Source: an uncultured Clostridia bacterium
GTDB lineage: Bacteria; Bacillota; Clostridia; UBA1381
Direction: 5' to 3'
Length of the DNA: 64,000 nucleotides
Assembly: GCA_947624485.1 (NCBI GenBank)
Contig: CANQKM010000004.1
Coordinates: forward strand, 1-64,000
In this document: piece by piece, positions 1 through 16,709 of the stretch
Numbering within the stretch: the stretch's first letter is position 1
Layout: each line of letters begins with the position of its first letter
Notes under the pieces: model-generated
What the model was told of the DNA's origin: nothing
What the model saw: the letters and a program-made list of their open reading frames with translations, nothing else
Database searches by the model: none
Translations under genes and position numbers: made by a program

Positions 1-257
<257 letters not shown>

Positions 258-316
258 TTACCTCCTTTTTCTTGAAACAGCTCACGGTACAATACAATAC
301 ATTGTTTGATAAAATT

Positions 317-345
317 ATTGTATCATACCGCAAATTGTTTTTCAA
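317..345 (-). promoter_or_regulatory. Promoter of the serine recombinase
   Basis: On the minus strand TTGAAA, a 17-base spacer and TACAAT lie 65-95 bases upstream of the recombinase start and overlap the 3' end of the preceding small ORF. TACAAT/ATTGTA repeats just downstream could form a dyad. This suggests the recombinase can be transcribed separately from the upstream ORF. Confidence 0.5.
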
Positions 346-539
346 GATTTTTCGCCATTGTTCCAATCATATCGAATGATATTTTCTATTAAATGCTCCA
401 TTGTTGCTTTGTTTTCAAAATGCTCCTTCAGAATGATAATGTTATTCCCAATCTTGCGCCAGTAAGTATTTTTGTCGGAAGTGTACGGCAAATATTCAGC
501 GCCGATTAACTCCCCGCATACAGCAGAATTGGATTGCAT
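342..539 (-). CDS. TnpW-like small transposon protein
   Basis: A 65-residue ORF with a strong ribosome site (AAGGAGG ten bases before ATG). The core YWRKIGNNIIILKEHF followed by an amphipathic tail ending in ENIIRYDW resembles the short IGxxxYxVxxxF...IxRLI pattern of TnpW-type proteins, found beside large serine recombinases in Tn4451/Tn1549-like elements. Their biochemical role is unknown to me. It lies directly upstream of, and on the same strand as, the recombinase, so the two probably form one mobile-element module. The family assignment rests on pattern recognition of a short protein; that it is a real gene is more certain than its name. Confidence 0.6.
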   Translation of the reverse strand: MQSNSAVCGELIGAEYLPYTSDKNTYWRKIGNNIIILKEHFENKATMEHLIENIIRYDWNNGEKS

Positions 540-874
540 TTGTGCTGCGCCTCCTTTTGGTTATTCAGAGGAACGTGTGTATTAAATACCCTCTACTATA
601 TGGAATGAAACAGGGGTTTTGAATGGGTATTTGATGAAAAAAAGTTGAAAGAATTTTTAATTTTCTACGTTTTCGACAGAAATACAAATGAAATGTTGAG
701 CAAAATACACAGGTAGATTATTCCAAAGAATCGGAAAATGATTGAGAAGAAATGCAAAAAATATTTACAATGGCTTATATTTGCGATAATTCCAACAATC
801 AATCTCATAAAACTGTGAATAATGTAAGTTACACATTCGTAGCAAGCAGTGCATTCGTACACACAAAACGCTCG
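540..874. other. AT-rich spacer, no gene seen
   Basis: The only ORFs here are short, low-complexity frames without convincing ribosome sites (the 65-residue minus ORF at 665-862 is hydrophobic and Cys/His-rich by chance composition). A weak pairing AAATACCC...GGGTATTT lies at about 577-634. I see no RNA gene or recognisable repeat. Confidence 0.5.
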
Positions 875-912
875 AAAATGAAAAATCCCGCTTTACGCGA
901 GATTTTCATTTT
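875..912 (-). terminator. Hairpin after the MerR gene
   Basis: AAAATGAAAATC and GATTTTTCATTTT arms around CGCGTAAAGCG form a long stem on the minus strand about 55 bases after the MerR stop codon, with T-rich sequence in the 3' arm. It is a plausible terminator for the MerR transcript. Confidence 0.5.
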
Positions 913-965
913 TGCTTGTTGGGACTACCGCCCCAAACCCCAAGAACGGAGATTTCATCTCTGAG

Positions 966-1809
966 CTACGCCTCTAAAAGAGGCTTTTTAATCAATCTGC
1001 TTCTGCATAGCCTGTCGATTTCCTCCTTGTCTAAATCCTCGATCGGGACAACAAGGCGCGACACGTATTTTTCCTGCGAAAATTCTTTACCGGTATAACC
1101 GCTTACGATACCTATACCGCGTTTACTGCCCGTAGGTTTCAGACCGAGAGCGCGGATATTTTCATCAAACTCGGCATGCGCTTTGCTTACGGCTTGATAA
1201 TTCCCGTAGCACATCATGGAAAACGCCGTGCAGCTCGGATAAAACACGGTGCATTCATCGGCGCAGGACGGTTCGAGCGGCACACAGCAAATATAAGTAT
1301 TTCCTTTCTCCGACCAATCATTGTTATATATAACAAAAGCCGTTCCGATAAAAGCGGTCTGTAGCCCTTTTCCACAACCTCTCCGAAAAGATTATACATA
1401 TCGCGGTATTTTCGCCCCAGCTTGTGCCCTTAAATTCCTTTTGGTAGCAGACATATTCGGGCAGCTTTATAATGTCCAGTTGAAGGTGCTGTTTATCGTC
1501 CATTCTCAGCTTCATTTCCTCATACGCTCTTGTAAGGAGCGCAATACGGCTTTCGAGCGCGGCAAGAAGCTCGGGCGATTTGCCGTTCGACGCATAGTAC
1601 AAATACGCGTCGTCGTAAGTAAGTCCCATCTCCAAAAACATTTGAATATGCAAAATCTTTGTCACGTTATAAATATCGTAATAGCGGTACCCCGTATCTT
1701 CATCAACGCGCGCGGGTGACAAAAGACCTCTGCTCTCCATACGCAGAACAGTCGAACGCGAAACGCCGCAGCATTTGCACACCTGACCTACCGTAAACAA
1801 TTTTTTCAT
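966..1809 (-). pseudogene. MerR-family regulator with effector-binding domain, two frameshifts
   Basis: Three overlapping minus-strand frames join into one protein of about 281 residues. Frame one carries the MerR helix-turn-helix (FTVGQVCKCCGVSRSTVLR, GLLSP, DTGYRYYD) and the following coiled coil. Frame two continues with MYNLFGEVVEKG. Frame three, open before its first ATG, reads TAFIGTAFVIYNNDW, CCVPLEPSC and MCYGNYQAV to LLEA and is a GyrI/BmrR-type ligand-binding domain. Continuity is restored by adding one C in the CC at about 1404 (plus-strand GG) and one A in the AAAA run at about 1368-1371, so both lesions are single-base homopolymer contractions. The ATG at 1809 is chosen over the in-frame GTG at 1818 because GGAG sits eight bases before it. 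The family binds a drug-like ligand and untwists a long-spacer promoter. It could be truly broken, or intact with sequencing errors. Confidence 0.85.
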
Positions 1810-1827: not shown

Positions 1828-1858
1828 TTGACCTGTTCATGGGTGAACGTGCTATAAT
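1828..1858 (+). promoter_or_regulatory. MerR-type 19-bp-spacer promoter with operator dyad
   Basis: TTGACC at 1828-1833 and TATAAT at 1853-1858 are separated by 19 bases, the over-long spacing diagnostic of MerR-activated promoters. Between them lies GTTCA-TGGG-TGAAC (1835-1848), a dyad at the position a MerR dimer would occupy. The promoter fires rightward, so its transcript would begin near 1865 and enter the SLH gene whose ATG is at 1930. No equally good promoter is seen for the MerR gene on the minus strand. Confidence 0.75.
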
Positions 1859-1929: not shown

Positions 1930-4900
1930 ATGAAAAAACGAATTTTAAGCTTAACTGTTGTATTGTCAATGGTACTTGCCATGATACCGGCGTTTTCGCT
2001 GACCGCGTCGGCGGCGGAATTTGTCGGCTCGGGCGGTAACGGCACGGAGGATGAACCGTATCTTATTTCCAATCTTGACGACCTTGAAGCGTTCCGCGAT
2101 TATATTAACGCTGATGCTGACGGCGGCAGCGATGAGTATTTCAAGCTGACGGCGAATATAGATATGTCTGACAAGTACGGCTCGGGCGGTACATCGTGGA
2201 CGCCGATCGGAACGTTTTCAACAGGGTTTAACGGCGAATTTGACGGAGCCGGTCATACGGTAAAAGTATCGTTGTTATATACCGATAGTACCGTTAATTA
2301 TATAGGCTTATTTGGAACGGTGGGCAGCTACATCAGCAACGGCGACGGCGCGATAAGAAATCTCGGCGTATCGGGTTCAATAAACAGTACTGCCGCTGTA
2401 ACTGCTATCGGCGGCATCGTGGGACAGAACAGCGGTCATGGCAGAATAGAAAGCTGTTACAGCAGCGTAAATATCAACGGAAAGGGTTCGATCGGCGGTA
2501 TTGCGGGAACGAATGTATTGGGCTCGATAACAAACTGTTATAATACGGGTAATATTACAAACAGTTCGACAAGAAACGACGAAGGAACGGGCGGTATTGT
2601 CGGTTACAATTACGAAGCGATAATGAGCTGCTATAACACGGGAAAGATAACGCTTGCCGAAGGAGGTGCTGCTGCCGTCGGCGGAATTGCGGGAACGCAC
2701 GAACAAGGAATAATAGAGAACTGCTATTATCTTACAGGTACGGCGGAAAAGGGTATCAGCGGCACGGACGACGCTGCGGAAACGGTTGAGGAAAAGAATA
2801 CCGAAGACTTTAAGACGCTCGCGTCGGCACTGAACGACGGATGGGACGTGTGGGTAGATTCCTCTTTCCTCGGAAGACCTGTGTTCACCGCTTTTCCTGA
2901 GGGCGGCGACGGTAAGGAGGCTACTCCGTATACGATTCCCGACCTTGAGACGCTTGAAAAGGTGCGCGATTATATCAACGCCGGCAACGGCAGCGGCGAG
3001 TATTTTAAGCTGACGGATAATATTGATATGTCCGACAAGTACGGCGCGGACAAGGGCGAGGACGGCACATCATGGACACCGATCGGAGCGTATTTAAAGC
3101 CGTTTAACGGCATATTTGACGGCGGCGGCTTCACGATAAGCGGACTTTACATTAAATATGTAACGAGTGACTACACAGGCTACAAAGGTCTGTTCAGAGA
3201 AATAGACACAGAGGGAGAGGTTGAAAATCTAACCGTTTCGGGCAGTATCAGCGGCTATGAAACCGTGGGCGGCATCGCGGGATATAACGAAGGCGTTATC
3301 TCAAATTGCCACAATAAATGCACGGTCAACGGTACTCGCAGTAATGTAGGCGGCATCGTGGGACAAAACAGCAGCGGCAGCATTGAAAATTGCGATAACA
3401 CGGGAGCGGTAAGCGGCGCCGGATTTTTGGGCGGCATCGTGGGACAAAACGTCTTAACCAGCAGTATTGAAAATTGCCATAACACGGGCACGGTAAGCGG
3501 CAGCGGCAGTTATATTGGCGGCATTGTCGGAGATAACAATGGAACTTGCAGCATTAAAAACTGCTATAACACGGGAACGATAAGCGGCAAATATGTTGGC
3601 GGCATTGCGGGAACCAATTACGACGGCAATAGCATTGAAAATTGCTATAACACGGGTGAGGTAAGCGGCACGGGCGACTATGCCGGCGGCATTGCGGGAT
3701 ACCACACAGGCACCATTAAAAACTGCTATAACACGGGCACGGTAAGCGGAAATAACAGAGTAGGCGGCATTGCGGGAAACGACTACTCCGGCGGCACCTT
3801 TGAAAATTGCTATAACGCTGGAACGGTAAGCGGCAGCGGAGGATACATAGGCGGCATTGTGGGCTACCACGGCAGCAGCGGCAGCAGTATTGAAAATTGC
3901 TACTACCTCAATACCTGCGGCGCAGAAGGTCAGGGCACGGCAAAAACAGAGGATGCGTTTAATTCCGGCGAGGTGGCGTGGCTACTGCAAAACGGTCAGG
4001 ATACGCAAACGTGGGGACAGAAGCTCAGTGACGGCGCGGACGCATATCCCGTGCTTACGAGTGACACAAGTAAAAAGGTTCTGAAAGTTACGTTCGCAAC
4101 ACAAGATAACCCAAATTATGATGTTAAGTACACCAATCTGAATAAAACGGTAGCGCTGCCGGAAAATCCCTCAAAGACTAATTATACGTTTGAAAGATGG
4201 TCGCAAAGTAAGGACGCGGACGGTGAAAAGTTTGACACGAGTACGAGCGTTACCGAGGATATAACGGTGTACGCCGTCGGACACGACCATTTCGGCGGCG
4301 ACAGTGCGGACATTGCGCTTAGCGCGACTTACGGCTACGCGGATGCGATTACGGTCAATTTGGACGAGCATATGAAGTACGCGAACAGGAGTGTTGCGGC
4401 TGCGGGTAAATTTACGTATAATATAGAAAGTGATGTAAACAGTACGAGCGCGAGTATAGTAAGCGGCAATACTCTGAATATCCCAGTTGGACTTAACGCG
4501 GGCGATTATACGATTACGGTTACGGCTACGGAAAAAGAGCCGCAGTATTCGCTTATGAGCGTTGAGGATTTCGGTACGGATGATGTGACGCTCACGGTTA
4601 AAGTGAGCATCGCGAAAGCCGCGTCAAGCGTAGTGAGCGCGCCGACGGCAAAGAATTTGACGTATAACGGCACGGCGCAGGAGCTTGTGACGGCGGGTAC
4701 AGCTGAGGGCGGCGAAATACAGTACGCTACGGAGCAGGAGGGCGAATATTCGTCAACCATTCCGACGGGTACGGAAGCGAAGGACTACGAGGTTTGGTAC
4801 AAGGTACAGGGTGACAGTAACCATAACGACAGCAATCCGCAGAAGGTGGACGTGACGATTAAAAAAGCAGATTCCACGCTGGCGGTTAACGGCGGCGAGG

Positions 4901-7900
4901 TGACCTATGGCGATACGATTACCCTTACCGCCAACGTTACGCGCAGCGCGGCGAACGGTATACGTTTAGCGGCGGTAGATTTGGATAAAGTCGAGTTCTT
5001 TATTAATGAAAAATCCCTCGGTACGGCTGATGTAGAATATACAGACGGGGAGTTAAAAAGCATCGGCACCGCGACGCTTGAAATCACCGCAAACAAGGAT
5101 TTTGAAATCGGCGCGAACACTATCCGCGCGGTGTACGGCGGAAGCGTGAACTTAAACGGAAGTCAAAACAATTCAATCACCGTTACGATGAATAAGAAAA
5201 CGCTTACATACACGGCGGCAGCGACAAACAGGGCATATAACGGCGGCACGATCGTTGAAGTAACCCTTACGCCAACGAACTCCGGCGGCGATGATGTAAC
5301 ATTAACGGCAACGGGAACGATTGAAAGCGCGGACGCGGGTGACGACAAGGCAGTTACGATAACAGGCGTTACCGTAGGCGGCGACGACGCGGAATATTAT
5401 CAAGCGGCAGCTACTCCGATAGAAGCGGTTACGGTGAATATTGAAAAGGCTGATTCGACCGTTGTTGCTCCGACGGCAAAGACGGATTTGACGTATGACG
5501 GTACGGCGCAGGAGCTTCTTGCAACAGCAGGCTCGGCGACCGGCGGCGAATTGCAGTACAAGGTTGATGAGGGAACGTACTCGACAGCCGCGCCGAAAGC
5601 AACAACAGCCGGAGAGCATACCGTTTATTATAAAGTAGTTGAAAATGAAAATTATAACGGCATAGCAGAGGCAAGTATAAAGGTCACAATCGCGAAGGCA
5701 ACGCCGACATTCCCGACTGTTGAGGCGGTTGACGGCGGTACATATGAACCTAATAAGAAACTTAGCAGCGTACCCGTGCCGGGAGTAGACGGCGGTACGC
5801 TCGCGTGGAGTGACGGCGAAACGGCACTTAATGCAGGCGCAAACAGTGTGCAGGCGGTATTTACGCCCGATAACAGTGAGAATTACGAGCCTACAAGCAT
5901 TACCGATACGGTTACGGTAAACGTCGCAAAGGCAACGATTACCGGCGTGGGGGTTCAGGACGTAACGGCGCGGTTTGACGAAACGCAGCCGACAAAGCAG
6001 TACACGCTCGCCGCGCCGACAGGAACGATTGCGGGCGATACCGTAAGATATGCCGAGGGCGACTATAACGCGGAAACCGACGAAAGCGCGGATTGGCAGG
6101 AAACCTGCCCGAGTTACAGTAACGAGGGTACGGATAAGACGATTACGGTTAAAATAGAGAGAGCAAATTATAACACACTCTATCTCAAAGCTACTATAAA
6201 GATTACAAACGAGCCGGCGATTGATAATGTTGACGTAACGGCGAACGACGGTCTTGTTTACAACGGCGGCGCGCAGGAGCTTGTAACGGTAGAAGGCACA
6301 CAGAGTAGCGACATAGTTACATACTATGTAAACGACGACTTGACCGGCAGCACGGAAAAGGCGACGGGTACAAACGCGGGCAGCTACTCGGTTAAGGTGA
6401 CCGTTGAAAGAGAGAGGTATCATCACTTTGAAAAGACGGTCGCGGTTACAATCGCAAAGGCTAATTCGACCGCGGTTGTAACACCGAAGGATTTGACGTA
6501 TAACGGCGAAGAGCAGGAGCTTGTCAGCGGCAGCGCCGAGGGCGGCGAATTGCAGTACAGTCTTGATAACATCAGCTATTCTACCACTGTCCCGACAGGC
6601 ACGAATGCGAATACCTACACAGTTTGGTATAAGGTGGTCGGCGATGATAACCATACCGATTTGGCTCCGCAGTCGATACAAACGGAAATAAAGAAGGCAG
6701 ATTCCGTCACCGATGTTGATAGTGCAGAAGTAACGTATGGTGACAAATTGATACTGACAGCTTCAGTGTCAAGGAAACCGTTGTTGGGCGGCATAAGCTT
6801 AATGGCTCTGGCAGATAAAGTTGATTTTTATCTCGGCGAAACGCCGCTCGGTTCGGCAGACGTAAGCTATACCGATGAGATGAAAGACAGCGGTACGGCA
6901 ATTCTCGAAATCACTGCGGACAAGCGTTTTGAAATCGGTACGAATACAATTCGCGCCGAGTATGGCGGCAGTGTGAACTTAAACGGCAGCGAAAACAATT
7001 CGATCACCGTTACGCTAAATAAGAAAACGCTTACATACACGGCTGAAGCGACAAATAGGCAATATAACGGTGGCACGACTGTTGAAGTAACACTTGAGCC
7101 AACTAATGCCGAAAGCAGTGATACTGTAACATTAACGGCAACAGGAACGATTGACGACGCGAACGTGGGTGACGGCAAGAGCGTTACGATAACAGGCGTT
7201 ACCGTAGGCGGCGAGGACGCGGAATATTATCAAGCGGCAGCCACTCCGACAGGTGCGGTTACAGTGGATATCGCAAAGGCGAAAGGCAGAGCGAGTGTTA
7301 CAATGGCAGACTACACGTGCGGCGATGAAAGTGTAAACCCCGTTCCCTCGTCCGATACGAACGGAACGGAAAGCGTAACCTATTCATACGCGGCGAAGGG
7401 TACGGACGATTACAGCGAGGTCAAGCCTTTAACAGCCGGAGAATACACGGTCAGGGCGATATTCGAGGCAAGCGATAACTATACCGAGTTGACCGTGACC
7501 GACGACTTTACCGTATCGCATGAATATTCGGTCGATTGGAAAAACAATGAAAATAGTCATTGGCACGAATGTGTGTGCGGAGCGGAATCGGACGAAACGG
7601 CGCATGAGGCGGTGACTGACGCGGCGGTACCCGCGACCTGTACCGATACGGGCAAAACCGAGGGCAGCCACTGTGACGTGTGCGGCTATGTTATTACGGC
7701 GCAGACAGAGACGGACGCGCTCGGTCACAGCTACGGCTCATGGATGATCACAATAGACCCGACACAGACTGCGGCAGGTAAAGCAAAACGCGTATGCGCT
7801 TTGAACGGTGAACATCAGGAAACAACGGACGTTCCCGCCTTAAGCGACAGCTCATGGATAAAGGGCGGGCGCCAAGAGCCGACCGAAACCGAGGAAGGCT

Positions 7901-9594
7901 ATCAAAAGTACACATCGGACAAGTTCGGCGAGTTTACGGAAGTACTGCCGACGCTCAGTGCGCCGCCGACCTATGGAGTACGAGGCACGACCATTGACGG
8001 TGACGGCAGCCCAAAGGCGGGCGTGCATGTTGTATTAAAGCAGGGTAATACAATATTCGGCTCGCAGGACGGCGTTGTGTCCGACGAGGACGGCGAGTTT
8101 AAGTTTACCGGCGTGGGAGCGGGCGTATATAATATTGTAGCGGAGTTTACGACAGAGGACGCGACTGTTACGGTTACGGAAATGGTCGTGATTACGGACA
8201 GTGACGTGGATAATGTGGAGGTAAGGCTGCCCACAGCGAAGGCGGACAGTATACTTATTGTTGAGAATAATAACGATACTCCCGATGTTGTTGTCGGCGG
8301 TCTTGACAGTGTGGCGTCGGATGAGGCGTCGGATATTCCCGATACGAGCCACGTCACCGTTACAATGACTGTGGAAAATCAGCCTGCGAACAGTGAGAAC
8401 GCCGAGCAGCAGGGTATTGACGAGATTTGCGATAATGCGGCTATCAATTTCATAGATATTACGCTTGTTAAGCAAATAGATAACGGCGTGTCGGAGAATA
8501 TTAAGGAAACGAGAAAACAGCTTACAATCGTAATCCCGTTCGATACAAATAATAAAAACAACATAACCGTCTATCGTTACCACGGCGGCGAGGCGGAGGC
8601 TCTTGCAAATACAGCCGAGCAGGGCGACTACTTCACAGTCGGAAACGGATATGTAACAATTTACACAAGTAAGTTCTCGACTTATGCCATAGGCTACGAC
8701 GAAAATTCTTCATCTGCTTCGTCACACGGCGGCGGCAGTGGTTCCTCATCGTACACGGTTCAGTTTGAGGCGAACGGCGGCAGCAAGGTAACATCACAAA
8801 GAATTTCGCGTAACGGCGTTGTGAAAGAGCCGACCGCTCCGACAAAGGACGGTTATACGTTCACCGGCTGGTACACAGATAAGGATTTGACAGCCGAATA
8901 TGATTTTACGTCGAAGGTTACAAAGAGCTTTACCCTGTATGCGAAGTGGAATGAAGCGGAGCCGGACGACGAAACGGAAGCAACTCCCGCGCCTACGGGC
9001 GAGCCGACATACGAGACTGACCTGCCGGACGACGAGCTATACAATCCTTTTACGGACGTTACAAGCGATTTCTGGTTTTACGAGCCTGTGCTGCAAGCAT
9101 ACAGGGACGGTATCATGGAGGGTGTGACCGACACAACATTTGAACCGCTTACGGATATTACACGGGGAATGTTTGTGACTGTGTTGTATCGTATGGAAGA
9201 TGAGCCGGAAGCTGACGGCGGATATACGTTTACAGATGTGCCGAGCGATGCTTACTATGCCGACGCTGTGGCGTGGGCAAGCGCGAACGGAATTGTTAAA
9301 GGCTATTCCGATACCGAGTATGCGCCCGATGACGTCATAACGCGCGAGCAAGCCGCGGCGATAATGTTCAGATACGCAACGTACAAAGGAGAAGCTCCGA
9401 CGGGAGCGTGGGCGATACGGCTCGACTATCCCGACCTTGCCGAAATTTCCGATTGGGCGCTTGATGGCGTAATGTTCTGCACCATGAAGGATATTATGGT
9501 GGGACGCGTCAGCGGAGAGTTCGACCCGAAAGCGAATATTACCCGCGCCGAGGGCGCAGCCGTGTTTGAACGGTATTTGAATATGGCTAAGTAA
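1930..9594 (+). CDS. Giant S-layer-homology surface protein (GLUG/MBG/SLH)
   Basis: A 2554-residue secreted, wall-attached protein. It has a signal peptide (1-29, ending LTASAAE), two blocks of GLUG motifs (about 130-275 and 435-660; GGIVGQN...NCYNTG), each preceded by a duplicated RDYINA/EYFKLT unit, and an InlB B-repeat-like segment near 715-785. MBG/Ig-like modules with LTYNGTAQEL follow (about 895-1790), then a Cys/His section with HWHECVCG and HCDVCGY near 1870-1930, a carboxypeptidase-regulatory-like domain near 2012-2100, a second InlB repeat near 2274-2340 (FTGWYTDKDL), and three SLH domains at 2371-2554 (NPFTDV, FTDVPSDAYY, PDDVITREQAA). SLH domains bind pyruvylated wall polymer, so this is an outer-surface structural or adhesive protein; its ligand is unknown. 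Start fixed by GGAGG eight bases before ATG. It is followed by a terminator and likely driven by the MerR-type promoter. Confidence 0.93.
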   Translation: MKKRILSLTVVLSMVLAMIPAFSLTASAAEFVGSGGNGTEDEPYLISNLDDLEAFRDYINADADGGSDEYFKLTANIDMSDKYGSGGTSWTPIGTFSTGFNGEFDGAGHTVKVSLLYTDSTVNYIGLFGTVGSYISNGDGAIRNLGVSGSINSTAAVTAIGGIVGQNSGHGRIESCYSSVNINGKGSIGGIAGTNVLGSITNCYNTGNITNSSTRNDEGTGGIVGYNYEAIMSCYNTGKITLAEGGAAAVGGIAGTHEQGIIENCYYLTGTAEKGISGTDDAAETVEEKNTEDFKTLASALNDGWDVWVDSSFLGRPVFTAFPEGGDGKEATPYTIPDLETLEKVRDYINAGNGSGEYFKLTDNIDMSDKYGADKGEDGTSWTPIGAYLKPFNGIFDGGGFTISGLYIKYVTSDYTGYKGLFREIDTEGEVENLTVSGSISGYETVGGIAGYNEGVISNCHNKCTVNGTRSNVGGIVGQNSSGSIENCDNTGAVSGAGFLGGIVGQNVLTSSIENCHNTGTVSGSGSYIGGIVGDNNGTCSIKNCYNTGTISGKYVGGIAGTNYDGNSIENCYNTGEVSGTGDYAGGIAGYHTGTIKNCYNTGTVSGNNRVGGIAGNDYSGGTFENCYNAGTVSGSGGYIGGIVGYHGSSGSSIENCYYLNTCGAEGQGTAKTEDAFNSGEVAWLLQNGQDTQTWGQKLSDGADAYPVLTSDTSKKVLKVTFATQDNPNYDVKYTNLNKTVALPENPSKTNYTFERWSQSKDADGEKFDTSTSVTEDITVYAVGHDHFGGDSADIALSATYGYADAITVNLDEHMKYANRSVAAAGKFTYNIESDVNSTSASIVSGNTLNIPVGLNAGDYTITVTATEKEPQYSLMSVEDFGTDDVTLTVKVSIAKAASSVVSAPTAKNLTYNGTAQELVTAGTAEGGEIQYATEQEGEYSSTIPTGTEAKDYEVWYKVQGDSNHNDSNPQKVDVTIKKADSTLAVNGGEVTYGDTITLTANVTRSAANGIRLAAVDLDKVEFFINEKSLGTADVEYTDGELKSIGTATLEITANKDFEIGANTIRAVYGGSVNLNGSQNNSITVTMNKKTLTYTAAATNRAYNGGTIVEVTLTPTNSGGDDVTLTATGTIESADAGDDKAVTITGVTVGGDDAEYYQAAATPIEAVTVNIEKADSTVVAPTAKTDLTYDGTAQELLATAGSATGGELQYKVDEGTYSTAAPKATTAGEHTVYYKVVENENYNGIAEASIKVTIAKATPTFPTVEAVDGGTYEPNKKLSSVPVPGVDGGTLAWSDGETALNAGANSVQAVFTPDNSENYEPTSITDTVTVNVAKATITGVGVQDVTARFDETQPTKQYTLAAPTGTIAGDTVRYAEGDYNAETDESADWQETCPSYSNEGTDKTITVKIERANYNTLYLKATIKITNEPAIDNVDVTANDGLVYNGGAQELVTVEGTQSSDIVTYYVNDDLTGSTEKATGTNAGSYSVKVTVERERYHHFEKTVAVTIAKANSTAVVTPKDLTYNGEEQELVSGSAEGGELQYSLDNISYSTTVPTGTNANTYTVWYKVVGDDNHTDLAPQSIQTEIKKADSVTDVDSAEVTYGDKLILTASVSRKPLLGGISLMALADKVDFYLGETPLGSADVSYTDEMKDSGTAILEITADKRFEIGTNTIRAEYGGSVNLNGSENNSITVTLNKKTLTYTAEATNRQYNGGTTVEVTLEPTNAESSDTVTLTATGTIDDANVGDGKSVTITGVTVGGEDAEYYQAAATPTGAVTVDIAKAKGRASVTMADYTCGDESVNPVPSSDTNGTESVTYSYAAKGTDDYSEVKPLTAGEYTVRAIFEASDNYTELTVTDDFTVSHEYSVDWKNNENSHWHECVCGAESDETAHEAVTDAAVPATCTDTGKTEGSHCDVCGYVITAQTETDALGHSYGSWMITIDPTQTAAGKAKRVCALNGEHQETTDVPALSDSSWIKGGRQEPTETEEGYQKYTSDKFGEFTEVLPTLSAPPTYGVRGTTIDGDGSPKAGVHVVLKQGNTIFGSQDGVVSDEDGEFKFTGVGAGVYNIVAEFTTEDATVTVTEMVVITDSDVDNVEVRLPTAKADSILIVENNNDTPDVVVGGLDSVASDEASDIPDTSHVTVTMTVENQPANSENAEQQGIDEICDNAAINFIDITLVKQIDNGVSENIKETRKQLTIVIPFDTNNKNNITVYRYHGGEAEALANTAEQGDYFTVGNGYVTIYTSKFSTYAIGYDENSSSASSHGGGSGSSSYTVQFEANGGSKVTSQRISRNGVVKEPTAPTKDGYTFTGWYTDKDLTAEYDFTSKVTKSFTLYAKWNEAEPDDETEATPAPTGEPTYETDLPDDELYNPFTDVTSDFWFYEPVLQAYRDGIMEGVTDTTFEPLTDITRGMFVTVLYRMEDEPEADGGYTFTDVPSDAYYADAVAWASANGIVKGYSDTEYAPDDVITREQAAAIMFRYATYKGEAPTGAWAIRLDYPDLAEISDWALDGVMFCTMKDIMVGRVSGEFDPKANITRAEGAAVFERYLNMAK
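4617..5457 (+). repeat. Ig-like module of the SLH gene, copy A
   Basis: This segment encodes an MBG unit, an Ig-like unit (ADSTLAVNGGEVTYGD...GGSVNLNG) and a third unit ending EYYQAAATP. The same order recurs at about 6449-7275 with high DNA similarity, for example the shared AATAAGAAAACGCTTACATA. It is an internal duplication within one gene. Confidence 0.75.
6449..7275 (+). repeat. Ig-like module of the SLH gene, copy B
   Basis: Second copy of the module at 4617-5457, diverged in places (the linker SRKPLLGGISLMALADK replaces TRSAANGIRLAAVDLDK). Nearly identical DNA stretches favour recombination-driven length variation of the protein. Confidence 0.75.
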
Positions 9595-9662: not shown

Positions 9663-9772
9663 TGTCCGTCTCGGCTTTGTCAAATATGCTATAATTAAGC
9701 TGATATCTTGGTATCACTGCCGTATTTCTGCATTGAGCAAAAAATCAGTTAGAGATGTTAAAGTGATATATT

Positions 9773-9907
9773 ACGGTCACGCTCCGTATAAAAATGTAGA
9801 AACTTTTAAGCCGTTTTTTGAGGGTAGTAATGAAAGTATATTACCCTGTCGGATTTGCCCCAAAAGCATTAGGTTTTATGCGGTTTTCAGAACCTAAAAT
9901 TTCTACA
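9773..9907. repeat. Structured repeat element, copy 1
   Basis: The element begins TTACGGTCACGCTCC, contains TTACCCTGTCGG, and is bounded by complementary arms TGTAGAAACTTTTA and TAAAATTTCTACA (one base bulged). Copy 2 at 10165-10304 has the same conserved words but different, again complementary, arms. About 80 bases after the element both copies are followed by TACAATTCACTGTCATTC and a GCAGAACGGC motif. Confidence 0.65.
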
Positions 9908-10043
9908 ATCATGCACTGTTGTGACATATTCCGCACCTCATACTTTACAATGCAGTGTATTTTGCGACTTTATCAACTTAGTATACAATTCACTGTCATT
10001 CTGCAGAACGGCGGTTTTGAACCCGATACATAGCTATGTAATT

Positions 10044-10089: not shown

Positions 10090-10164
10090 ATTTTTGCCTA
10101 AATTTTCTAAGGAATATACAAAAATATTGTTGTATATGCAAAAAAATCGGAGCGCAGCCTTAAA

Positions 10165-10304
10165 TTACGGTCACGCTCCTTACAAAAATGTCCGCATTTT
10201 TAACCCCATTTTCGGGGTATCGAATATAATTTCATTACCCTGTCGGTTTTCGGCTAAAAAAAACCTTGATTTTATGCGAATTTTTTGCTTAAAATGCGGA
10301 CTAT
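10165..10304. repeat. Structured repeat element, copy 2
   Basis: Shares TTACGGTCACGCTCC, an AAAAATG stretch, ATTACCCTGTCGG and a TTTTATGCG box with copy 1. The bounding arms are GTCCGCATTTTTAA and TTAAAATGCGGAC: the outer seven bases differ from copy 1 on both sides but remain complementary, and one base is bulged as in copy 1. Confidence 0.65.
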
Positions 10305-10458
10305 GACGCTTATTTCTCTTATGTTCAGCGTCCTTTTTCAGTCGTGCTGTTTTTCGACATTTATCACAGTATTTCGTTCTGCGCTCTGTCAGAATATAAT
10401 TCTCACCACATATTGTACATTTTTCGTATTTGTCAGTTTCATCAGCCTTATGTACAAT
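10180..10458 (-). pseudogene. Zinc-finger-like gene fragment without a start
   Basis: The minus strand is open for about 92 codons with no ATG and with in-frame stops just upstream. It reads ADETDKYEKCTICGENYIL, then RTKYCDKCRKTARLKKD and a basic tail. The CxxC...CxxC spacing is a short zinc-ribbon pattern common in mobile-element proteins. The same region after repeat copy 1 (about 9915-10020) holds a more decayed version with stops (CGICHNS). I read both as relics of a duplicated gene. No function can be assigned. Confidence 0.45.
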
Positions 10459-10627
10459 TCACTGTCATTCGGCAGAACGGCAGTTCTGAACCATCTGCAC
10501 AACAGCGAGTATGAAATTGTCTGTGGCCATATGCTGCTATCGTCATTGTCCTTGAAAACACAAGGTGTTTCGGGAGCTACTGTGAATTATCTTTTTTCAA
10601 AGCGTAGTCGATACCGTTTTCGGAGTA

Positions 10628-12836: not shown

Positions 12837-13106
12837 TCAAAACTCATAATGTGTCCGCATACTGACAATTTTTACTGTTTTATTTTCATCGTCAATTTGA
12901 TACACAAGCCTATGCTGTACATTTATTCGCCGCGAGAACGCGCCGCTTAAATCTCCTGTCAGCTTTTCGTACGGCGGCGGTGTCTTATACGGATTTTCAC
13001 AAAGTATATCGATAAGCTGCTGCACCTTTCCGTCCAAATGCGCGGCTTTCAGCTTCGGAATGGCTTTTAATGCGGATTTTGTGAAAAATATTTTATACAT
13101 TACCAC
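12837..13106 (-). CDS. yoeB: YoeB-family toxin
   Basis: An 89-residue RelE-superfamily ribosome-dependent mRNA endonuclease. The YoeB signature is clear: FTKSALKAIPKLK at the start, PYKTPPPYEKLTGDLSG, then the core SRRINVQHRLVYQID and the C-terminal MRTHYEF, which supplies the His-Tyr pair. The catalytic Glu (YEKL region), Arg and His-Tyr are all present, so the toxin looks intact. Its start overlaps the last codons of the antitoxin gene, the normal YefM-YoeB arrangement. Adjacent to the cassette strip, it may stabilise that region. Confidence 0.92.
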   Translation of the reverse strand: MVMYKIFFTKSALKAIPKLKAAHLDGKVQQLIDILCENPYKTPPPYEKLTGDLSGAFSRRINVQHRLVYQIDDENKTVKIVSMRTHYEF

Positions 13107-13348
13107 TCAACCGCGCTTTCTTCGACACAATCCTCAATCGGCGTTTTCATACCTTCTACAATCTCGTCCTTCACTTCCCGATTGCGTGACAGATACAAGG
13201 TTTCCATAAGTCCGTTATAGTCCGCCTCGCTGATAATAACGGCATTTCCCGCTTTCGTGTTGACGTTTATTACATCATTAAATTCAACCGCCTGATTGAT
13301 ATAGTCGAACAAGTTTTTTCTGAGATTGGTTATATTTATATTTGTCAT
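13100..13348 (-). CDS. yefM: YefM/Phd-family antitoxin
   Basis: 82 residues from the ATG at 13348, chosen because GGAGGTGAATGAC precedes it; the longer ORF-track start would lie upstream of the promoter -10. It has the Phd/YefM DNA-binding N-terminus (NITNLRKNLFDYINQAVEF), the strand VINVNTKAGNAVIISEADY, and a C-terminal toxin-binding tail with IEDCVEESAVEW. It represses its own operon and neutralises YoeB. The toxin start lies within its last codons. Confidence 0.9.
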   Translation of the reverse strand: MTNINITNLRKNLFDYINQAVEFNDVINVNTKAGNAVIISEADYNGLMETLYLSRNREVKDEIVEGMKTPIEDCVEESAVEW

Positions 13349-13368
13349 GTCATTCACCTCCGACATTA

Positions 13369-13407
13369 TTATATGTACATAATAACGTACATATAACATT
13401 TTGTCAA
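13369..13407 (-). promoter_or_regulatory. yefM-yoeB promoter with autoregulatory palindrome
   Basis: On the minus strand TTGACA, 17 bases, TATTAT. A perfect 10-bp inverted repeat TTATATGTAC...GTACATATAA (13369-13396, 8-base centre) covers the -10 and start region, the expected place for YefM-YoeB autorepression. The GTACAT half-site matches the TGTACA core known for YefM operators. Confidence 0.85.
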
Positions 13408-15257: not shown

Positions 15258-16709
15258 TTAATGCAGTTTTACGGTCAGCGCGTTATCATAGTCAAGTTTT
15301 ATGTCCTTGGGATATGTGACGGTAAGTGAGCTTATCGATTGTTTAATTTCTTCATTGCTCACGTTTTCGTCGGGAACAATGTAATATCCCGTTTCGTCGT
15401 ATCCTCCGAATATGAGCCGCGCGGTGTAAGAATTTGTGTCGTAATGCACTCTGTCGCTGCGGTCTGACATCGGAGTAATACCGCCCGGAGCAGCCTCGGC
15501 GCCGCTTTCATCGCGCAGACCGAATTTAATTCCGCACGGCACAAATCCGTCCTTGTAATAGTCAATGCTTACCACGCCGCCGTCCGCGCGCACATCAGTC
15601 ACGACTATGCTTCCCAATCCGTCGGGCAGTTCATATCGTATCGGATAATCTCCGATTTTGTGCGATATTTCGCCCGTTTCCACGCCGTCAGACAATATCG
15701 GTACAATTTTGATTTCCTCGGTGTTCGTATCGGCTTTCAGAAATTCGTATGAATTTTCCTCACCGATAACGTCTGTGTCAAGAATGTCGAGCGATACGCC
15801 GTTTTCGTCAAACAATGCGACCTTCTCCGCGATATTGCCGCCGCCCGTTGTTACAAGCTGATTGCCGAACGGCGACAGCACGATTTTCTCTATTGACGCG
15901 TCCGTATCGGGAATATTTATGTTAGTCTTCGCCGTAACGGTCGCTTCCTTGGCGGCTTTCCTGTCTATATCCGTGGCAACGTACCATATTCTTGACTTTT
16001 CCTCGTCCGTCAAACCGCGGCTCTGAAGCTCCGTCAGGTCTATCGGATTTTCGCTGTCATGCCTGTCGGCGAGAACCTCAACCTTAATCGTATCGGGCAG
16101 GTCGGACGCGGATATATTGTACTTGTACACCGTTTTGAACGTGTACCTGTCGGCGAAATATCCCTGTGTGCTGCTGTGGTTGCCGGCAACACTTACATCG
16201 TGCTGTCCGTTTATTCTGACCTCAACCCACATCTTCTCATACGCCTTTGCGTAGGCGTTGTGACCTATCGGCTCACTGCCCTCGTAAAACTGTTCGTCGG
16301 ACGTAAGCGTGCAGAACACGTGAAGATAGTTATCGTCGGCAGCCGCATTATCAAGCGTCAGCGTTATTCCGTCCTTTGTGACGCTTTCCCCTATTTGCGC
16401 GCTGTATTTTGCCAGTTCTTCCGTATCGGTTATTTCGTTTACTCTGTCGTTTTGGAAATAGCTTATGATACTGCCGATAGCCTCACGTCCCGCCGGCGAC
16501 GCGGCAAATGCCGCCGCGGTGCATATTACCGCCGCGCACGCCGCTATAAGCGAGGCTTTAAGTATTTTGTGCCGCATATACCTCTTCCTTTCCGAAGGGG
16601 CGGCGGTTATGGACGCTGTCACTCTGCGCGTAATATTGTCCGCGCTTATTTTAAGGTCGGTGTCGGGAATGCCCGTTTCCGATATAAGCTCTTTAAGTCT
16701 TTTATTCAT
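15258..16709 (-). CDS. DUF4179-type membrane protein, putative anti-sigma factor
   Basis: 483 residues from the ATG at 16709. A cytosolic N-terminal segment of about 45 residues, one membrane helix (ASLIAACAAVICTAAAFAAS) and a large extracytoplasmic part beginning GREAIGSIISYFQND with KDGITLTLDNAAADDNYLHV match the DUF4179 architecture. These proteins are encoded with ECF sigma factors and usually act as membrane anti-sigma factors that release sigma on an outside signal. The start overlaps the sigma gene end by eight bases, so translation is coupled. The signal sensed is unknown. Confidence 0.85.
   Translation of the reverse strand: MNKRLKELISETGIPDTDLKISADNITRRVTASITAAPSERKRYMRHKILKASLIAACAAVICTAAAFAASPAGREAIGSIISYFQNDRVNEITDTEELAKYSAQIGESVTKDGITLTLDNAAADDNYLHVFCTLTSDEQFYEGSEPIGHNAYAKAYEKMWVEVRINGQHDVSVAGNHSSTQGYFADRYTFKTVYKYNISASDLPDTIKVEVLADRHDSENPIDLTELQSRGLTDEEKSRIWYVATDIDRKAAKEATVTAKTNINIPDTDASIEKIVLSPFGNQLVTTGGGNIAEKVALFDENGVSLDILDTDVIGEENSYEFLKADTNTEEIKIVPILSDGVETGEISHKIGDYPIRYELPDGLGSIVVTDVRADGGVVSIDYYKDGFVPCGIKFGLRDESGAEAAPGGITPMSDRSDRVHYDTNSYTARLIFGGYDETGYYIVPDENVSNEEIKQSISSLTVTYPKDIKLDYDNALTVKLH

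Follow-up and report, generated by a model that had tools for sequence, protein, structure and literature searches.

The window analysed here is the whole stretch of 64,000 nucleotides at the start of contig CANQKM010000004.1 from an uncultured Clostridia bacterium (assembly GCA_947624485.1). Near its left end lies the gene of a giant SLH surface protein of 2554 aa (1930-9594, + strand), which is preceded by the ribosome-binding site GGAGGA (1917-1922, +). The protein carries a signal peptide (MKKRILSLTVVLSMVLAMIPAFSLTASA, called by a heuristic), GLUG, Ig-like and List_Bact_rpt domains and three SLH repeats (E 6e-31). According to the domain match, the C-terminal SLH region extends approximately from 9046 to 9591 (+). 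The AT-rich region 3' of the gene contains two degenerate direct repeats, one of 99 nt (9767-9865 and 10161-10259) and one of 67 nt (9957-10023 and 10426-10492). They may be what is left of a gene or element that was duplicated. Further downstream, a gene pair at 12837-13399 (-) resembles, by eye only, a YefM/YoeB-type toxin-antitoxin module. Serine-recombinase coding sequences are found near two merR/surface-protein loci of the source genome: one in the window (3-251, -), beyond the window merR gene, and the other at 1-1054 (-) of locus L006, near the merR gene of contig 12.

The divergent promoter region and the window merR gene

The promoter of the SLH gene is composed of a -35 hexamer TTGACC (1828-1833, +), which is kept in paralogues and relatives, and a -10 hexamer TATAAT (1853-1858, +), directly followed by a second TATAAT (1859-1864). 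The spacer is exactly 19 bp long (1834-1852) and harbours an operator dyad GTTCA-TGGG-TGAAC (1835-1848; extended TGTTCATGGGTGAACG) with perfect 5+5 arms that display symmetric compensatory changes across homologues. A dyad inside a -35/-10 spacer of 19-20 bp is a hallmark of MerR promoters. The sequence bears out the original prediction of such a promoter with a GTTCA/TGAAC dyad at 1828-1858, coordinates included, and of its direction into the 2554-residue SLH gene, which is intact behind it. A sigma-70 scan covering spacers of 16-18 bp listed no + strand promoter between 1000 and 1930. The SLH promoter is absent from this ordinary scan because its spacer has 19 bp.

The second MerR hallmark, a divergent regulator gene with the operator at its own start, is likewise present. 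On the opposite strand, the SLH promoter is overlapped by the merR promoter TTGACA-17-TATAAT (1857-1885, -), which matches the consensus at 12/12 positions and occurs as the same block in relatives. As this promoter reads from 1885 to 1857, the operator at 1835-1848 falls just downstream of the predicted merR start. By its sequence, the layout of this region is the classical divergent MerR arrangement. The merR reading frame as it stands encodes 161 aa (1324-1809, -; ATG at 1809), and its homologous part, the MerR DNA-binding domain and the coil, spans 1405-1809 (-). Compared with intact orthologues, two 1-bp deletions are apparent: A5 was shortened to A4 at 1405-1420 (-) and T5 to T4 at 1329-1345 (-). 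They truncate the frame, so that the GyrI-like effector-binding domain (1038-1388, -; profile positions 142-264) is now out of frame. This means that the predicted divergent cognate merR gene is there, but not with a continuous effector-binding domain. The window MerR retains an intact DNA-binding domain and coil, followed by a tail of out-of-frame sequence after about residue 135. Apart from the two deletions the gene is well preserved, which suggests that the frame was either lost recently or misassembled; both deletions reside in homopolymers about 1.4 kb from the contig end, where such an error is possible.

An intact merR gene of the source genome is located on contig 12 (9258-10052). Its product shares about 48% identity with the window type. 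The gene is divergent from that of a 2561-aa secreted protein and has a site of its own, GTTCA/TGGAC. Since the window merR is frameshifted, any regulation of the SLH gene would have to come from the contig-12 copy or from the truncated protein. The contig-12 copy is the likely regulator of the window SLH promoter. A second truncated merR gene, ending after about residue 101-109, was found in genome G011 ahead of a related GLUG surface gene.

Regulator family and ligand

Pfam MerR_1 recognizes the N-terminal winged-helix DNA-binding domain of both copies, with E-values of 1e-10 (window) and 2e-13 (contig 12). Intact regulators comprise about 264-282 aa and consist of a MerR DNA-binding domain, a helix and a GyrI-like domain; that of G005 has 277 aa. 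The predicted regulator structure (pLDDT 88) matches EcmrR (E 2e-15) and BmrR (E 1e-12) as well as CtaZ and GyrI. In an intact orthologue, the C-terminal domain superimposes on that of EcmrR with a TM score of 0.82, the Pfam GyrI-like match being below the cut-off. Both the profile matches and the predicted fold support an assignment to the MerR + GyrI-like (BmrR/EcmrR) class. PPR-repeat matches look spurious and were rejected.

It is the fold that suggests a ligand-dependent regulator. An acidic pocket residue for cationic drugs is a trait of the BmrR/EcmrR class. In the alignment column where CtaZ, a closthioamide binder, has Glu, the window's branch mostly has Arg, Gln or Leu, and a few Lachnospiraceae branches have Glu. 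Similarly, the site-I Glu of EcmrR is apparently replaced by a hydrophobic residue, as judged from our own alignment and numbering. With these replacements, sensing of amphipathic drugs is not the favoured reading. A ligand of another kind is therefore plausible, speculatively an amphiphile that is bile-like or anionic.

Recurrence of the site, its targets and the apparent growth of the regulon

With up to three mismatches, four sites were found in the 2.7-Mb source genome compared to none for the reversed pattern. A scan of 101 relatives listed 20 sites, and a scan of 391 genomes of the class listed 23 sites in 13 genomes, in two sets that overlap; the reversed pattern yielded 0 in both. A chance promoter was rejected as an explanation: the reversed pattern gave no hits, the site is conserved and the dyad changes in a compensatory manner. 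A regulator-alignment scan of 84,980 species genomes detected close homologues in uncultured Clostridia. The records are mostly labelled Clostridia, Lachnospiraceae or Oscillospiraceae and include a 'Lapin' (rabbit) series and ruminants. Upstream of merR homologues, the best hexamer pair had a spacer of 19 bp at about 25 of 41 loci versus 15% in shuffles, the best promoter being chosen by the two hexamers alone.

The dyad arms are complementary at 147 of 175 positions against a shuffle mean of 121, and 0 of 20,000 shuffles reached 147; this count is inflated by a site selection that in part rewarded dyad symmetry or agreement with the consensus, and the underlying sequences are related and hence non-independent. 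Variants altered on both sides comprise GTTCA/TGAAC, GTCCA/TGGAC, GATCA/TGATC, GACCA/TGGTC, TACCA/TGGTA and TTACA/TGTAA. In addition, the half-site follows the recognition helix: SRST occurs with GTTCA, SRKT with GATCA and SRTS with TACCA. By its covariation and its tracking of the helix, the comparison speaks strongly for binding of the GTTCA/TGAAC-type dyad by this MerR family. Five loci (L036, L038, L040, L042, L052) display asymmetric half-sites GTTCA/TGGTT together with a TTGAG -35 box and are located farther from merR. They constitute a divergent Lachnospiraceae operator type which the simple dyad does not explain.

The genes behind the promoters encode mainly secreted proteins. At merR-linked loci with a resolvable divergent gene, 25 of 32 partners are secreted versus 42 of 261 background proteins (p = 2e-12), where signal peptides were called by the same home-made heuristic in both groups, the 25/32 were tallied by hand and a few start sites (L042, L058, L060) were corrected. 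Counted by unrelated target family, 8 of 14 are secreted (p = 9e-4). Pfam identified C-terminal SLH domains in four targets, those of G000 (2554 aa), G005 (2188 aa), G011 (2864 aa) and G002 (2693 aa), and the 2878-aa target of G100 has an SLH-like C-terminus by sequence. On this domain content, the arrangement with SLH giants recurs in four species besides the source, i.e. in five altogether. Other targets are Calx-beta giants, List_Bact giants, solute-binding lipoproteins and S41-like lipoproteins. At locus L104 (G005:C3), two sites at 15748 and 17064 point outward around one intact merR gene to two different secreted giants.

Exceptions behind merR-linked sites include one NRPS and two leader-type peptides. 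The NRPS is the divergent partner in G046 (L031/L115), and the peptides, Nif11-like or GG-leader peptides by eye, are those of L047 and L054; secreted metabolites may thus be among the products under this control. Orphan sites were found ahead of small membrane proteins, DUF308/HdeD-like in L004 and L117 and a ClC-type channel in L136. On contig 12 of the source genome, merR is directly followed by a ClC-like gene, so that the DUF308 and ClC genes may be part of one envelope or acid-stress response. A drug-efflux or detoxification target, typical of the BmrR/EcmrR class, was not encountered, and no drug pump is encoded directly behind any site. One MntP-like membrane ORF (by eye) lies 367 nt behind a site and has no ribosome-binding site. 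A MATE-like gene near L029 was rejected as an efflux-pump target, for it follows merR and is encoded on the opposite strand. A comparison of the genes downstream of merR across the loci revealed no conservation. Since they are unrelated, the conserved pair consists of merR and its divergent partner.

A merR homologue is present in 18 of 19 genomes with a site versus 1 of 10 congeners without one, where it is partial (Fisher 1e-5). Seventeen of the 18 are full-length or nearly so (that of G357 contains stops), and that of G203 is distant. This co-occurrence is an association and no proof of action, because site and merR are often inherited as one cassette. In G043, G060 and G196, merR and the sites are located on different contigs, which is consistent with control in trans.

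Fifteen extra sites have no intact divergent merR gene. About half of them retain merR pieces beside the promoter: L002, L107 (cut by the contig end), L110, L113, L133, L134 and L135 keep remnants of its 5' end, and the second site of L104 has a C-terminal fragment. These remnants are most simply explained if the cassette was duplicated as a whole and the spare regulators then decayed, with the promoters staying intact. From these gene remains, copying of cassettes and loss of regulators thus seem to be the way in which the regulon expanded. The source genome contains a degenerate copy of the module (G000:C10:38405; L002, L005), with about 12 codons of merR left and a frameshifted GLUG surface gene. 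Its promoter is perfect and is followed by an apparent tRNA sequence (by eye).

Proposed mechanism, alternative readings and known systems

Taken together, 1828-1858 can with good confidence be regarded as a MerR-regulated promoter of the giant SLH gene that belongs to a small, growing regulon. Binding, activation by distortion, control in trans and ligand dependence are what we infer for its operation. A BmrR/EcmrR-like dimer would bind the dyad within the over-long spacer of 19 bp. At rest, the dimer would hold the SLH promoter in an inactive form and mask the beginning of the divergent gene by which it is encoded. Upon activation, kinking and under-twisting of the spacer by the dimer would make the -35 and -10 boxes usable by RNA polymerase. 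In evolution, a module of merR, two-way promoter and secreted gene was joined to different surface proteins and seems also to have been duplicated, with extra copies losing merR and keeping the promoter. Decay of merR beside a retained promoter would imply control in trans. The window merR would be at an early stage of such decay, with the contig-12 copy likely acting in its place or the truncated window protein being constitutive. In its widest form, this proposal is tentative and a little short of an even chance: a portable merR/two-way-promoter cassette, fitted to one giant SLH or other surface protein after another and multiplied within genomes, would form a ligand-responsive one-protein switch that remodels the cell surface, and the one MerR left would switch several surface proteins in trans upon sensing a gut-derived molecule.

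The frameshifts in the window merR allow other readings. The truncated 161-aa protein might itself be a constitutive activator, which would render the SLH gene constitutive. The isolated N-terminal domain of Mta (MtaN) is a constitutive activator, and its structure is among the fold matches; the DNA-binding domain and coil of the window MerR are intact, and G011 also has a truncated merR ahead of a GLUG surface gene. However, the out-of-frame tail after about residue 135 may destabilize the dimer, and the homopolymer deletions may be assembly errors. This reading is considered unlikely. The same two frameshifts could mean that the promoter is a relic of an ancestral MerR control that was lost, leaving the SLH gene unregulated and driven weakly or from another promoter. 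The contig-10 copy, which decayed together with its target gene, would fit such a course. Yet the SLH gene has no break in its 7.6 kb and stands behind a perfect promoter and dyad, contig 12 encodes an intact paralogue of the regulator, and orphan promoters elsewhere were kept despite the loss of merR. Furthermore, the scan with 16-18-bp spacers listed no other good + strand promoter between 1000 and 1930. A relic is distinctly improbable.

The regulator could also control only itself, with the surface genes adjoining by chance or by insertion of a mobile element. Autoregulation is expected, the divergent merR promoter is excellent and a recombinase fragment is found nearby. Nevertheless, the 19-bp promoter faces the surface gene, away from merR, and recurs without merR still ahead of secreted genes. 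Moreover, the targets come from several unrelated secreted families and exceed the background. Autoregulation as the whole explanation is very unlikely. A MerR-controlled SLH promoter remains the preferred reading.

A one-component MerR switch whose operator can be read would offer a testable handle on how gut Clostridia time the display of giant surface proteins. As operator and recognition helix vary together, targets should be predictable across many uncultured species. The GyrI-like domain invites a search for a gut molecule that alters the bacterial surface. In addition, duplication of a regulator/promoter/target cassette and subsequent loss of the extra regulators would provide a route to regulon growth.

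In the openly accessible literature searched, a MerR regulon of S-layer, SLH or other surface proteins was not found. A paper on a Veillonella autotransporter had come up through the surname Merritt, and the MtaN literature retrieved dealt with an unrelated enzyme that bears this name. The molecular logic is known, whereas the target class and the growth by cassettes were not found there. MlrA, which is not known to have a GyrI-like domain, acts via csgD, away from the structural gene, and we know of no conserved divergent cassette of MlrA with giant SLH proteins. MerR-family control by MlrA is linked to surface structures or colonisation in E. coli (csgD/curli) and V. cholerae (PMC3509220, PMC9662190). 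In heavy-metal resistance MerR regulons, the palindrome is located in a 19-20-bp spacer (PMC1526738). They share the operator/promoter logic with the SLH site, but their regulators bind metals and their targets are transporters or detoxification genes.

The best match is EcmrR, a multidrug-sensing MerR protein of E. coli (PDB 6xl5; E 3e-20 by profile and 2e-15 by fold), which likewise consists of a MerR DNA-binding domain, a coil and a GyrI-like domain. EcmrR activates promoters with 19-bp spacers by kinking and under-twisting the DNA, and its GyrI-like domain binds drug-like compounds with a Glu in each site (PMC8113463). By contrast, the regulator described here has about 16% identity to EcmrR over the fold alignment, and its targets are secreted proteins, with giant surface proteins among them. 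BmrR from B. subtilis, which controls the Bmr efflux pump, has the same three-part architecture and fold and an operator in an over-long spacer, whereas the divergent partner here is a secreted protein.
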